DNA of 5,587 nt, taken from contig JAGUYV010000426.1 in the NCBI GenBank assembly GCA_020061125.1, positions 1 to 5,587 on the forward strand. The letters are read 5' to 3'. The notes beneath the pieces are model-generated. The model was not told where the DNA came from and did no database searches. It saw only the letters and a program-made list of their open reading frames with translations. The position numbers and the translations under genes are program-made. Numbering within the stretch: the stretch's first letter is position 1; the number at the start of each line of letters is the position of its first letter. Positions 1-5,250 of this stretch are shown piece after piece. The DNA comes from a bacterium (GTDB lineage Bacteria > UBP15 > UBA6099 > DSWB01).

Positions 1-423
1 CAGGAGCGCGGCCGCGGCGTCGAGGCTGCGGTGCGCGAGGCTCACGGCGTCTAGAAACTCGTCAAGCCCGGGACCGGGAAATCCGGCGAGGTTGTACACC
101 GTTTCCGGGTCCAGGTCCGGCGGTTCGGCCTCGGCCTGTTCGCCGTAGGGATTGACCGCGGCCAGGGGATAACCGCCCAGCCCGGACAGCACCGCGTCCA
201 TCTTGAGCTGCTCGATGTCCTGGCGCAGGCCTTTTATCTGGAATTTATAGAGTTCGATCTGGGAATAGGCCTGCGCCAGTTCCTTTTTGAGCAGGAGCGA
301 CTCGTGGCTGTGCGGGTTTTCCGCTGCGCCCGAGGCCACGCGGTCGAGGGGCACGGCGCGTTCCCGCCCCTGATCGAGAAGCCTGTCGCGCGATGCGTTT
401 TCCTGTTTTCTGAATATCGCCAT
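1..423 (-). CDS. Hypothetical coiled-coil protein, C-terminus outside window (partial)
   Basis: The frame is open from an ATG at 423 to the left edge, giving the first 141 residues. The protein starts MAIFRKQENASRDRLL. It is soluble-looking, with no signal peptide or membrane segment. Residues about 42-80 (LLLKKELAQAYSQIELYKF and following) form a charged heptad-like helix, probably a coiled coil. After it comes a Gly/Pro/acidic stretch (about 81-120) and then a second helical stretch (DEFLDAVSLAHRSLDAAAALL). I do not recognise a family. The start lies 25 nt after the stop of the CBS/SpoIIE phosphatase gene on the same strand, so the two are probably co-transcribed. No Shine-Dalgarno site precedes the ATG: the upstream bases read CCTCCTCCCGCA, the complement of one. 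Translation may therefore depend on coupling to the upstream gene, or the true start may differ. A role in the phosphatase pathway is only suggested by position. Confidence 0.7.
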   Translation of the reverse strand, partial: MAIFRKQENASRDRLLDQGRERAVPLDRVASGAAENPHSHESLLLKKELAQAYSQIELYKFQIKGLRQDIEQLKMDAVLSGLGGYPLAAVNPYGEQAEAEPPDLDPETVYNLAGFPGPGLDEFLDAVSLAHRSLDAAAALL

Positions 424-448
424 TGCGGGAGGAGGCGCGGCGCCGGAG

Positions 449-1654
449 CTATTGCGCGCCGTTCCTGGACAGTTCCACGAGCAGGATGGCCAGGTCATCG
501 GTGAGCTTGTCGGCCGAGGAGTAGTCCTTGACGAAATTGTACAGTTCGCGCACCGTGCGCTTGTCGTCGCGGGCCGCGAGCTTCTTGAACTGGGCCAGGA
601 ACCGGCGGTCTCCGAGCAGCCTGCCCTTTGCGTCCTTCTGCTCCACGCACCCGTCGGTGAAGAACAGCAGCTTGTCGCCGGGGTTCAAAAAGGTGTCTTT
701 TTCGGGATACACGGCGTCGGGCTTGATGCCGAGCGGCACCTGGCACGGCGGCAGGAAGTCGTACTTGTGCGTTTTTCTGCGCCACACGCCCGGCTTGGGC
801 AGCCCGAAGTGCGTGTACCGCAGATGCAGGGTCTTGAGGTTCAGCACCCCGTAGCACCCGGCCACGAAAAACCCCGGCGGCATAAGATTGCTGATGATTT
901 TGTTCATCTCCGTGACCAGCACGCCCGGGAACAGGATGCGGCTGGACAGCATGTCGTAGTACATTTTGATTTCGATGGCGATCATGGCGCTGGTAATGCC
1001 GTGTCCCATGACATCCACCACCAGGATGCCCGCGTGCTCGGGGTCAATGCGCGTGACGCCGAAATAATCTCCGCCCAGGGATGCGGCCTGCTTGTAGATG
1101 TGCGAGATGCGCAGGTTCTTGAACGCGGGCGGGCGGCTCTCGATGAGCTGTTTCTGGAAGTTGCCCGCGAACACCATTTCCTTTTCCATGAAGGCCAGGG
1201 ATTCGCTCAACTGGTTCTTGACTTCGGTGATCTCGCGGGTCTTGTTCGCGACCTCGATTTCGAGAATCTGCTCCCTGATCTGGGCCAGGTCCTTGATGGA
1301 AATGATGCCCATGATGCGGTTGTCGCCGTTGACCACGAGCAGGTGGCGGAAATCGCCGCGCGTCATTTTCTGGTAGGCGGCGTTTACGGACCGGTCCGGG
1401 GTGATGGTCACGAGTTCCGAGGTCATGACATGCTTGACGAGCGTTTCGGCGGGATCAATTTTCTTGATGGCCACCTTGCGCAGCAGGTCGCGCTCGGTGA
1501 AGATGCCCACGGGGCGGTCGCCCTCGGCCACCACAATGGCGCCCACGCGTCGCTGCGCCATGAGCTTCAGCACCTCGTAGGTGAGCGTGTCGGGCGGCAC
1601 GCACAGCACATCCGTGCGCATGAACTGGCCGATGTTGAGTTTCCTGTCAGGCAT
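449..1654 (-). CDS. CBS-domain pair fused to SpoIIE/PP2C-type serine phosphatase
   Basis: Cytoplasmic signalling phosphatase of 401 aa if started at ATG 1654. Two CBS repeats (about residues 10-60 and 75-125) carry the usual GIFTERDLL (50-58) and GIISIKDLA (116-124) signatures. Such pairs generally bind adenine nucleotides and act as sensors. A helical linker (about 125-170) leads to a SpoIIE/RsbU-like PP2C domain (about 175-395). The metal-ligand motifs are present: GGD (D196), DVMGHG (D214), FFTDG (D334) and TDD (D386), so an active Mn/Mg-dependent phosphatase is expected. Relatives dephosphorylate anti-sigma-factor antagonists; no such partner gene is visible here. The frame extends upstream to GTG 1747 (432 aa), with another ATG at 1708. 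I prefer 1654 because AGGGAAG lies 8 nt before it, it sits just before the first CBS domain, and the extra codons (including TTA, TTG) look less typical. Family confidence is high, start confidence moderate. Confidence 0.92.
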   Translation of the reverse strand: MPDRKLNIGQFMRTDVLCVPPDTLTYEVLKLMAQRRVGAIVVAEGDRPVGIFTERDLLRKVAIKKIDPAETLVKHVMTSELVTITPDRSVNAAYQKMTRGDFRHLLVVNGDNRIMGIISIKDLAQIREQILEIEVANKTREITEVKNQLSESLAFMEKEMVFAGNFQKQLIESRPPAFKNLRISHIYKQAASLGGDYFGVTRIDPEHAGILVVDVMGHGITSAMIAIEIKMYYDMLSSRILFPGVLVTEMNKIISNLMPPGFFVAGCYGVLNLKTLHLRYTHFGLPKPGVWRRKTHKYDFLPPCQVPLGIKPDAVYPEKDTFLNPGDKLLFFTDGCVEQKDAKGRLLGDRRFLAQFKKLAARDDKRTVRELYNFVKDYSSADKLTDDLAILLVELSRNGAQ

Positions 1655-1737
1655 GGGACCCGCTTCCCTGGCAAATGCCGCGGCCTTCAATAACCCGGGT
1701 TTCTTCATGAGATATGAATAACCCGGATCGGATTCAA

Positions 1738-1766
1738 AGTCTACCACAAAAATACAATATTGTGCA
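1738..1766 (-). promoter_or_regulatory. Candidate sigma-70-type promoter for the CBS/SpoIIE gene
   Basis: On the minus strand TGCACA (1761-1766) and TAGACT (1738-1743) are separated by 17 nt, each matching the consensus at 4 of 6 positions. Transcription would begin near 1731, downstream of the GTG at 1747, which favours one of the internal ATG starts. The match is weak and not unique. Confidence 0.25.
1754..1763. repeat. 10-bp perfect palindrome between divergent genes
   Basis: ACAATATTGT is a perfect palindrome within the AT-rich part of the divergent intergenic region. It overlaps the candidate -35 element of the leftward gene, so it could be a repressor site. A 10-bp palindrome in AT-rich DNA is also easily due to chance. 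Confidence 0.2.
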
Positions 1767-1795
1767 GTGATGCAACGGCATTCCCGCGCCGCGTA

Positions 1796-1824
1796 TTGAT
1801 TTCAGAGGCGAAAACCGTTAAAAA
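1796..1824 (+). promoter_or_regulatory. Candidate promoter for the GH84 operon
   Basis: TTGATT (1796-1801) and TAAAAA (1819-1824) are separated by 17 nt, each with 4 of 6 consensus bases, about 57 nt upstream of the GH84 start codon. It is the best sigma-70-like pair I find in this short region, but it is weak and unproven. Confidence 0.3.
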
Positions 1825-1880
1825 ATACAGTCAATGCGCCCCGGTCCCTGGCCACAAATCCGGCGCGGAAAGATATTGCC

Positions 1881-3596
1881 ATGAAAACACAGATTGTGAA
1901 AACACTGCTTGCGGCGGCGGTCCTGTTGTTGCTGGCAAGCCCGGCCGCGGCCTCGTGCTCGGCGGATGCAACGCGCATTATCTACCCGGCGCCCCAGAAA
2001 GCATGCCTCGGCAAACCCGCGCCCCTGGCCGGCGTGCCGGACTTGCGTTCCGGCTCCTCCGCTTTCACGGACAAGGCCGCCTCGCACCTGCGCGCCGCAT
2101 TCGAGTCCATGGGCTTGAGCCAGAAATCCGCGCGCGGAGATCTCATCGAGGTGCATCTTCTGCCCAACCCCGAGACGCACACCGGCGCGTTCCGCGACGA
2201 GGGCTACAGCATCGAAGTAGCGCCCGGCGGCAGAAAAATTATCCTGCGGGCGAATTCCGAAACCGGTTTCATCTACGCGGCCCTCACCCTCGGGCAGCTC
2301 ATGCACAGCACAGATACCGGCGCGTCGGCCATATACACCGGCACGGTCAACGACTACCCGGCGTTCGCGTTCCGAGGCGTGCTCGAGGGCGGCTACGATA
2401 TCTGGCAACACGCCAACCGCGCGGACATGCTCCGCTGGATGGGGCCGCTCAAGATGAATTATTTCATCTACGCGCCCAAGGAAGACCCCTACTTCCGCCG
2501 CCAGTGGCGCAAACCCTTCCCGCAATCCGAACTCGACATGTACCGCGAGTATCTGGCCATCTGCGATGAATTCAATGCGATCTTCGCCTTCTCCCTGTCC
2601 CCGGCCCTGAACATGGAATATTCCAGCGAACAGGAATTCCAGACCCTGGTGGCCAAATACCGGCAGATACAGGACCTGGGCGTGGCGCATTTCGGCATCT
2701 TCTTCGACGATGTGCTGCCCTTCCTGTCCACACCGGCGGATCAGGCGCGCTTCGAGCACATCGCCGAGGCCGAGGCCCTGGTCACCAACCGGCTCCTTGT
2801 CGCCCTGCGCGAAAAAGACCCCAAAGCAAGACTGTTTTTCGTTCCCAACCAGTACTGGGGCTGGACTCCCACCAAGTACTGGGAGATCATCCGCCGGGAC
2901 CTCAACCCCGAGATCGAAATTGGTTGGACCGGAATTGACATCGTGTCCGATGTGATCACTATCGAGCACGCGGAGAAATTTAAACACACGGTGGGCAAGT
3001 ACCCGGCCATCGGGGACAACTATTCGCCCCTGTACGCGCTGGCGCGGCGCGAGGCCGGGCTGGAAACCGTGGCGTCCAGCTTTGTAAACAATCCCTACGC
3101 ATTCGCCGCGGACAGCAAGGCGCAACTCTCGAAATTCGTGGACGCAACAGTTGGGGACTACGCCTGGAACACGCGCGCATACGACCCGGACCGGTCCCTG
3201 TTCGAGGCCGCGCGGCGCCTGGCCGGAGGCCGTGAAAAGCACGCGCGCGCCCTGCTCCTGGCCCTGCGCCTGGCCGACGGACACCGCTCCAAACAAATCC
3301 AGAGCCAGTGGCGCGCGGACATCGCGACGGTCATTGACAAAATCGCGAACGCGCCCGGCGGCAAGTCCGCCCCGAAGGCCAGGGCGCTGGACAAACGCCT
3401 CGAATCCATGCTCAACAGCATGCGCGAACTGCACACAAGCGGCGTCAACCCGCTGCTGCTCGGCGAACTCAAGCCTATCCTCGAAAAAGCGGACGCCATG
3501 CTCACACAGGCCAGAAAACTGCTCGAACCCCAATCCGCGGCAAAACACAAACCCGCGGACCTGGCCGCGGAACTCAAGAAAACCCTGGGCCTGTAA
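1881..3596 (+). CDS. Exported GH84-family beta-N-acetylglucosaminidase (O-GlcNAcase/NagJ-like)
   Basis: 571 aa. Predicted to remove terminal beta-linked GlcNAc from glycans or glycoproteins outside the cytoplasm. Residues 1-25 are a signal peptide (MKTQIVK, then a Leu/Ala core, then ASPAAAS). C26 follows AAS, so a lipoprotein is possible, but the lipobox is poor. Residues about 30-155 resemble the GH20b-like N-domain (EGYSIEV, then GFIYAALTLGQLM). The catalytic barrel spans about 160-435: RGVLEGGYD (165-173), YAPKEDPY (197-204, with the conserved Lys200), FSLSPALN (237-244), FFDDV (274-278) with catalytic D276/D277 for substrate-assisted hydrolysis, NQYWGW (323-328), WTG (349-351), NNP (403-405) and DYAWN (426-430). 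A helical C-terminal region follows (about 440-571), as in bacterial GH84 enzymes. Part of the pocket is atypical: the family motif WDNYPVND aligns with GDNYSPLY (378-385). ATG 1881 is preceded by GGAAAG 8 nt upstream. The next gene lies 35 nt downstream in the same direction. Confidence 0.9.
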   Translation: MKTQIVKTLLAAAVLLLLASPAAASCSADATRIIYPAPQKACLGKPAPLAGVPDLRSGSSAFTDKAASHLRAAFESMGLSQKSARGDLIEVHLLPNPETHTGAFRDEGYSIEVAPGGRKIILRANSETGFIYAALTLGQLMHSTDTGASAIYTGTVNDYPAFAFRGVLEGGYDIWQHANRADMLRWMGPLKMNYFIYAPKEDPYFRRQWRKPFPQSELDMYREYLAICDEFNAIFAFSLSPALNMEYSSEQEFQTLVAKYRQIQDLGVAHFGIFFDDVLPFLSTPADQARFEHIAEAEALVTNRLLVALREKDPKARLFFVPNQYWGWTPTKYWEIIRRDLNPEIEIGWTGIDIVSDVITIEHAEKFKHTVGKYPAIGDNYSPLYALARREAGLETVASSFVNNPYAFAADSKAQLSKFVDATVGDYAWNTRAYDPDRSLFEAARRLAGGREKHARALLLALRLADGHRSKQIQSQWRADIATVIDKIANAPGGKSAPKARALDKRLESMLNSMRELHTSGVNPLLLGELKPILEKADAMLTQARKLLEPQSAAKHKPADLAAELKKTLGL

Positions 3597-3631
3597 AACG
3601 GCCCGTTGCGGAAACCATTCTGGAGACAGAG

Positions 3632-4600
3632 ATGAAAAACAGATCAATTCTCAATATCGCCGCAATTCTTTTCGCCGCGGCCCTGCTCGCCACGACGGCC
3701 AGCGCCCAGCGCCTGCCCGACAGCGTGTTCGACCAGCAATCCCAGGCCTTTGGCAACACTTTGCAGGATGTGCCCCCTGACATCCTTTCCGTGGAGCTTT
3801 CGCCCGCGGCGCCCGCCGCCGGAGAGCCGGTGCTGGTGCGCGCCGTCATCCGCGTGGACCCGGACATGAGCGCGTTCCGCGTGTCCCGCGCCGTGCTGCG
3901 CTATTCCACGGACGGCGTGTCATATCAGGCCGTGGACATGGCGCTCTCGCCCGGAGAGCAGGATCTTTGGGAAGCGCGCATCCCCGGCCAGCCCGCGGGA
4001 ACCACCGTGCGCGCAGCCGTGGCCGGATGGGACCAGGTGGGCAACGCCGCCTTCCAGATCCCGGTGCAGAGCGCCGTGTCCCGCGAAGCCCTGTTCCCGG
4101 TCCTGTCCGACCCCAGGGACCAGGGTATTCCCGATGGGCTGGACATACTGGAAATGGCCTACGGCGCGGACGCCGAGACCCTGTACTACTGCCAGACGCT
4201 TGCCGGGCCGTTCCAGTCCTTCACCATGCTGGGCGCGTCCGCCAACGCCATGGCCGTGAACAACGACGACCTGCGGCGCAAGCCGCACCTTAGCCACAAC
4301 GAAAACGAAGGCCCCTACATCGCCCTGGCCCCGCAGTTCGGCATCGCCACCCTGGTTAGTATCGAGGATGTGCTCAAGGGCCGCGCCATCAAGGATGTGC
4401 CGGGCATCACCGTATCCGCCAGAGGCAACCGCGTGTGCGCCCGCGCCCCGCTCGCCACGGTCATCAAAGACCCTGCGCTCGGCGTCAAGGTCTTCTCCGC
4501 TACCGTGTCCCTGAACCCCGGGACCGAAGAACTCGTGCTCGCCGACTGCTCGCCCTACGCCATCCTCTACCCCGGCGGCGCGCAGTACACGGTCAAGTGA
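3632..4600 (+). CDS. Exported protein of unknown function, two probable beta-sandwich domains
   Basis: 322 aa. A clear signal peptide (1-25: MKNR, hydrophobic core, cleavage after ASA) directs it to the periplasm or exterior. Residues about 48-145 read like an Ig/Fn3-type beta-sandwich: alternating hydrophobic strands, ILSVELSPAAPAAGEPVLVR (51-70), AVLRYSTDG (87-95), and AAVAGWDQVGN (128-138), as in domains appended to secreted carbohydrate enzymes. Residues about 160-322 contain DGLDILEMAYGADAETLYY (168-186) and a strand-rich tail, faintly like CBM9/DOMON-type folds; that is only an impression. Cysteines are at 187, 269 and 306. No catalytic motif is recognised. GGAG at 3622-3625, 6 nt before the ATG, is a good ribosome site. 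The gene starts 35 nt after the GH84 stop, so the two are likely one operon. It may bind the glycan or surface the enzyme acts on (inference). Confidence 0.8.
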   Translation: MKNRSILNIAAILFAAALLATTASAQRLPDSVFDQQSQAFGNTLQDVPPDILSVELSPAAPAAGEPVLVRAVIRVDPDMSAFRVSRAVLRYSTDGVSYQAVDMALSPGEQDLWEARIPGQPAGTTVRAAVAGWDQVGNAAFQIPVQSAVSREALFPVLSDPRDQGIPDGLDILEMAYGADAETLYYCQTLAGPFQSFTMLGASANAMAVNNDDLRRKPHLSHNENEGPYIALAPQFGIATLVSIEDVLKGRAIKDVPGITVSARGNRVCARAPLATVIKDPALGVKVFSATVSLNPGTEELVLADCSPYAILYPGGAQYTVK

Positions 4601-4753: not shown

Positions 4754-4984
4754 ATGGCGACTCGTAATTATCAGGTAGTCATTGAACAGGACGAAGATGG
4801 ATATTTTGTGGCGGAAGTGCCCGGCATCAAAGCCTGCTATACGCAAGGGAGAACTTTTGAGGAAGTCATTGAGAATATCAAGGATGTTCTCCAGATGTGT
4901 CTTGAAGAAATGAAAAGCCGTGGCGAGGAGCCGCCGGAGCAGAGTGAAATCATCGGAATCAAACGCTTAGAGGTTGCGGTTTGA
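4754..4984 (+). CDS. hicB: HicB-family antitoxin
   Basis: 76 aa, typical of the short HicB class. It neutralises the HicA mRNA interferase by binding it in the cytoplasm. The N-terminus NYQVVIEQDEDGYFVAEVPG (5-24) matches the HicB pattern (beta strand, E-x-D-E-D-G-Y, beta strand, P-G), followed by C28, TQGRTFEEVIENIKDVL (30-46, the conserved Q-G-x-T-x-E-E-A/V-x-x-N-I helix) and a charged helix. The protein ends in RLEVAV, with no recognisable HTH or ribbon-helix-helix DNA-binding domain. ATG 4754 is preceded by AGGTG at 4744-4748 with 5 nt spacing. The gene overlaps the start of hicA by 4 nt (TTGA), so translation is coupled, with the antitoxin first. The locus is more AT-rich than its left-hand neighbours, consistent with a mobile gene pair. 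Confidence 0.9.
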   Translation: MATRNYQVVIEQDEDGYFVAEVPGIKACYTQGRTFEEVIENIKDVLQMCLEEMKSRGEEPPEQSEIIGIKRLEVAV

Positions 4985-5210
4985 CTCCTAAACTCCCTAT
5001 CCTCAAAGGCCGGCAGATTATCGCGGCTCTCAAACGCATGGGATTTGCAGTAACGAGACGGTCCCCCGGCAGTCATGTTCAACTGGCCCATCCCGACGGC
5101 AGAAGAACGACCGTCCCGGACCACGGAGACAATGACATAGGAATCGGCCTGTTCAAAAAATCCTGCGGGATGTCGAAGTTTCCCCGGAAGAGTTTTCGCG
5201 GCATTTGTGA
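4981..5210 (+). pseudogene. hicA: HicA-family mRNA interferase toxin, frame broken at A6 run
   Basis: HicA toxins are small double-stranded-RNA-binding-like ribonucleases that cleave mRNA. The start is TTG 4981, overlapping the hicB stop and preceded by GAGG (4970-4973) 7 nt upstream. It gives the typical N-terminus TPKLPILKGRQIIAALKRMG, then the hallmark GSHVQL with the expected catalytic His (H32), and RRTTVPDHG (41-49). After FKK (residue 60) the literal frame turns into an unrelated tail (SCGMSKFPRK...) ending at 5238. The family-like C-terminus ILRDVEVSPEEFSRHL lies in the -1 frame and stops with TGA at 5208-5210. The break is exactly at AAAAAA (5155-5160): one extra A, or a -1 slip, restores a normal 76-aa HicA. 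It may be a real inactivating deletion, slippage-controlled expression or a sequencing error. The catalytic part is intact, but the truncated fold may be inactive. Confidence 0.85.
5155..5160 (+). other. A6 homopolymer at the hicA frame break
   Basis: A run of six adenines in the context TTC AAA AAA TCC sits exactly where the hicA reading frame departs from the family pattern. Seven adenines, or a ribosomal -1 shift or RNA polymerase slippage here, would join the two hicA segments. Confidence 0.8.
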
Positions 5211-5219
5211 TATCTCTGC

Positions 5220-5250
5220 TTTTACCCTTTTACCGTAAAAATCAATTTTT
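5220..5250 (+). terminator. Weak candidate terminator after hicBA
   Basis: TTTTAC (5220-5225) and GTAAAA (5235-5240) can pair as a 6-bp stem with a 9-nt loop, and TTTTT follows at 5246-5250. The stem has a single G-C pair and the T-run is not adjacent, so termination would be inefficient at best. Confidence 0.2.

Follow-up and report, generated by a model that had tools for sequence, protein, structure and literature searches.

The window analysed here is the entire 5,587-base contig C463 of a draft genome that consists of 513 contigs and is 78.8% complete. According to Pfam it encodes a SpoIIE-type phosphatase with two CBS domains on the reverse strand (positions 449-1669) and a beta-N-acetylglucosaminidase (NAGidase, PF07555) on the forward strand (1881-3596). 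Both lie beside a hicBA pair, and a protein without a Pfam match (3632-4600) comes next. The G+C content falls from 0.62 at positions 1-4600 to 0.51 in hicBA and 0.42 downstream, the segment 4601-5587 being low in G+C. The GC3 values of 0.51-0.62 in hicBA are also far lower than the 0.80 of the adjoining hydrolase gene. These drops in G+C and GC3 suggest that hicBA lies within an acquired stretch.

The antitoxin gene hicB (4754-4984, forward strand) is intact, as a preliminary description of this DNA had stated. Its 76-residue product matches PF15919 over residues 6-67 (E=7e-10) and is a small HicB without a DNA-binding domain; a relative (G064) is 52% identical. The hicB stop codon TGA (4982-4984) overlaps the hicA start via the sequence TTGA. 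In the 14-class scheme of HicBA systems, Class 2 is defined by hicB located upstream of hicA and by a HicB of 63-103 codons without a DNA-binding domain (PMC10865869). The locus shares with this class the gene order, the gene overlap, a HicB that falls within this size range and has no DNA-binding domain match, and a HicA of family PF07927, but it differs in that the HicA frame is broken in the last helix. The arrangement fits a putative Class 2 hicBA module with a disrupted toxin gene.

The hicA open reading frame runs from TTG at 4981 to TGA at 5236-5238 and encodes 85 residues. PF07927 was detected in this frame-0 product with 56.5 bits (cut-off 27), covering residues 10-60 only and model positions 1-51 of 58. 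The intact N-terminal part (4981-5160, forward strand) carries the GSH and VPDHG motifs, extends up to FKK and spans α1-β1-β2-β3 and the first turns of α2. From 5161 to 5238 the list of open reading frames shows an out-of-frame extension, SCGMSKFPRKSFRGICDISAFTLLP, on the same strand in place of the family C-terminus, and the residues that follow FKK (SCGMSKFPRKSFRG...) are unlike all HicA sequences seen in the analysis. In an alignment of the frame-0 product with 47 relatives, the nearly invariant residues G30, S31, H32, P46 and H48 were all retained, and the nearly invariant I61 and everything beyond it were lost in frame 0. Residues G30, S31 and H32 provide the conserved glycine and catalytic histidine (GSH) expected of a HicA, residues that are required for the toxicity of gonococcal HicA (PMC12297915). 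Both motifs had been pointed out in the preliminary description; VPDHG proved not to be invariant, as relatives from the same order have VPARS.

A complete α-β-β-β-α dsRBD-like fold was not found in one reading frame, the last helix being encoded in the -1 frame. In the AlphaFold2 model of the frame-0 product the pLDDT drops to 60, 57 and 37 in the blocks past the junction, whereas the intact paralogue encoded on contig C464 of the same genome gave a mean pLDDT of 95.7, with both C-terminal helices at 92-97. Chain A of PDB entry 1whz matches residues 11-59 of the frame-0 product (E=1.7e-4). The entry is titled hypothetical protein, and we take it to be the HicA protein TTHA1913 of Thermus thermophilus. 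Its 70-residue chain continues in frame past the matched part, whereas the frame-0 product does not.

The C-terminal half of α2 and the last helix of HicA, ILRDVEVSPEEFSRHL, are encoded in the -1 frame of the forward strand at 5160-5210, with a TGA stop at 5208-5210. The frame changes at an AAAAAA run at 5155-5160, where the junction was placed by a profile scan. The frame-0 domain and the -1 tail were scored as two separate pieces. On a profile built from 23 HicA C-termini the tail reached 29.2 bits, with intact tails scoring 23.0-36.4; the best of 10,789 other 16-mers in the window reached 4.5 bits, and none of 300,000 random peptides attained 29.2. The earlier claim of a HicA frame broken at this run, with the remainder in the -1 frame, therefore holds, and its coordinates were right. 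The tail is homologous to the in-frame tails of L039-L045. This part is read in frame both in the order relatives L039-L042, as ...GLMQKIIQSAGVTKEQFIEAL or something very close to it, and in the C464 paralogue, as ...LIREILREIEISPEQFKDILDKI; compared with these relatives the window is thus shifted by one base. There is no further lesion in the tail or in HicB and neither shows decay, which agrees with the earlier statement that the part past the break carries no other disabling change. As a separate observation, the HicA proteins of L039-L042, from four genomes of one family, have VPARSS (or VPARSG) and not the usual VPxHxG, so that the second conserved histidine is lost.

Three more hicA genes occur in the same genome, on contigs C204, C464 and C293, and all are intact; the copy on C464 is of the classical GSH version and has hicB directly upstream. 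For comparison with other organisms, the frame of the tail was determined for each of 128 HicA matches, which were collected from the window and some 190 genomes. The tail was in frame by profile in 90 of them, and most of the others had shorter or divergent C-termini. In three cases, namely the window, L019 and L034, it was clearly in another frame. In L016 and L029 the break lies in mid-gene, and the frame of L022 is interrupted by a stop codon. A break at this junction was found in none of the other 127 matches. Disrupted hicA genes are thus not unusual; the junction in the window is a singleton. A-runs of at least five bases near the junction position were present in only seven scored tails, the window included, and are seldom seen there in intact HicA genes. 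At least five other hicA genes, from unrelated genomes, are disrupted at varied positions (L016, L019, L022, L029 and L034), and no A-run is located at their breaks. A slip mechanism conserved among HicA genes was considered, as the tails of L034 and L019 share the relative frame, and was rejected for the 128 matches because these junctions are not A-runs. No sibling strains were found: among genome contigs the one match was distant (an uncultured Acidimicrobiaceae MAG, 51%), viral contigs and phages gave no match, and the plasmid search returned two distant HicA sequences (48-51%). Order-level relatives of the HicA protein are at best 52-56% identical.

The locus probably reflects an ordinary recent loss of the toxin, caused by deletion of a single base from a short A-run. 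The deletion would be the usual product of replication slippage, and we infer that it is present in the cells and not just in the consensus. Translation in frame 0 would then yield 85 residues that include the catalytic GSH segment, with the second helix of the dsRBD-like fold swapped for an unrelated tail. We expect such a protein to fold badly and to be either inactive or degraded, and toxicity would be lost. HicB would remain intact and be left without a partner. A HicBA pair would be harmless once its toxin is dead, and therefore such lesions may be tolerated or even favoured; after a recent lesion the tail would have yet to decay. The case resembles the singleton frame-shifted genes and pseudogenes described with GeneTack (PMC3711429), in which one gene carries one indel that is validated by homologues and no junction motif is conserved across relatives, and we see no difference of substance between these and the broken hicA. 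In the same work, frameshifts near the 3' end of singletons are treated as likelier to be indel mutations than sequencing errors, relative to other positions (PMC3711429).

It is possible, though rather unlikely, that the organism has an intact hicA and that one adenine of the run went missing in a metagenome contig with low coverage or mixed strains. The window is just one short contig (5.6 kb) in a draft of 513 contigs that is 79% complete, the undecayed tail and HicB would also fit an intact gene that was misread once, and the GeneTack authors expected BLASTp-confirmed singleton frameshifts to be mostly sequencing errors (PMC3711429). However, in the 335 kb of this assembly that were checked, 153 homopolymers of at least six bases lie within intact long ORFs, and a frame-switch test, which caught 76 of 112 simulated one-base deletions (about 68%), found no convincing homopolymer frame break in these 335 kb. 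Homopolymers are thus not a general weakness of the assembly, and this tips the balance towards a real lesion without being proof for this contig; the intact state of the three other hicA copies also argues against an error. Two homopolymer runs flagged by the test look, from the stop and start positions, like an ordinary gene end followed by the start of the next gene. Switch candidates with longer overlaps mostly coincide with stronger coding on the opposite strand, and none was confirmed as a break. A protein that is functional as it stands is very improbable: the 85-residue product would have to be a HicA variant with a new C-terminus. It does keep every nearly invariant residue of the first 50 positions, the catalytic GSH included, but the nearly invariant I61 and the following helix are lost, the model confidence past the junction is far lower than that of the paralogue's C-terminal helices, and the new tail has no relatives among the sequences seen here.

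We consider it quite improbable that -1 slippage of the ribosome or the polymerase on the A-run supplies a low level of functional full-length HicA and so keeps the toxin dose low. The related idea that A6 is a tolerated -1 slip site, from which very little full-length HicA would arise while HicB is amply supplied, making the toxin dose-limited, has an equally small chance of being correct; it retains this chance because the -1 frame restores the exact family C-terminus and the tail is undecayed. A single lysine tRNA could re-pair on AAA one base back and would thereby lead to that C-terminus; there is an AGGA 12 nt upstream, and a predicted stem begins about 5 nt downstream. However, the in-frame site reads UUC AAA AAA UCC, which corresponds to the heptamer C_AAA_AAA, and a slippery heptamer X_XXY_YYZ such as A_AAA_AAG is absent at the junction. 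The site is not a two-tRNA heptamer because the upstream lysine codon would re-pair on CAA. In E. coli, A_AAA_AAG is far more shift-prone than other runs (PMC5009743), and C_AAA_AAA does not let both tRNAs re-pair. The downstream stem is ordinary when compared with shuffled sequences (z -1.1 and -1.0), and as a candidate stimulator it did not stand out against the shuffles. Among 153 other A6 sites in the genome, such an upstream motif occurs at 17 and a downstream fold as strong at 48, and at 6 of the 153 both are equally good. For the polymerase, insertion rates climb exponentially with run length (PMC5574713) and in many genomes selection against slippage becomes visible in runs of about nine A or T (PMC1088944); the A6 run is shorter than that, and its junction is used by no other HicA in the survey. 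Some trace of full-length toxin may be made, but nothing marks it as selected, and a slippage switch has weak support. A phase-variable switch would mean that the toxin is turned on or off as the length of the A-run changes from cell to cell. The run does lie inside the coding sequence and such changes are reversible in principle, but six bases is short, 99 A-runs of at least six bases occur inside intact long ORFs in the 335 kb alone, and the homologous position in the relatives is not a homopolymer. This makes a switch extremely improbable. The preliminary description had offered the lesion as recent, erroneous or functional; a recent or erroneous origin is supported by these results and a functional one received no positive support. 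Against its proposals, that slippage could give a low level of full toxin or act as a phase-variable switch, stand the length and heptamer of the run, its ordinary context and the lack of a break at this junction in any other HicA examined.

Most likely, hicA is an ordinary toxin gene that was broken recently, or the break is a base-calling error of the draft metagenome genome; good evidence for a deliberate switch of frame was not seen. For annotation, the locus is best listed as hicB with a disrupted hicA and not as an active toxin-antitoxin system, with the remark that the break may be an error of the draft genome. If slippage were demonstrated, the locus would be an uncommon example of a toxin whose dose is set by frameshifting; nothing here favours it.

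The right end of the contig (5467-5587), which lies 256 bases beyond the broken hicA, is the beginning of a multicopy element. It resembles the left end of an insertion sequence and includes the start of a short ORF (MLCSPSKQMSIEEQWQA). Over 97-98 bases it recurs at 99% identity on at least four further contigs (C424, C202, C31 and C23). These four likewise terminate inside the element, which is probably why contig C463 stops where it does.
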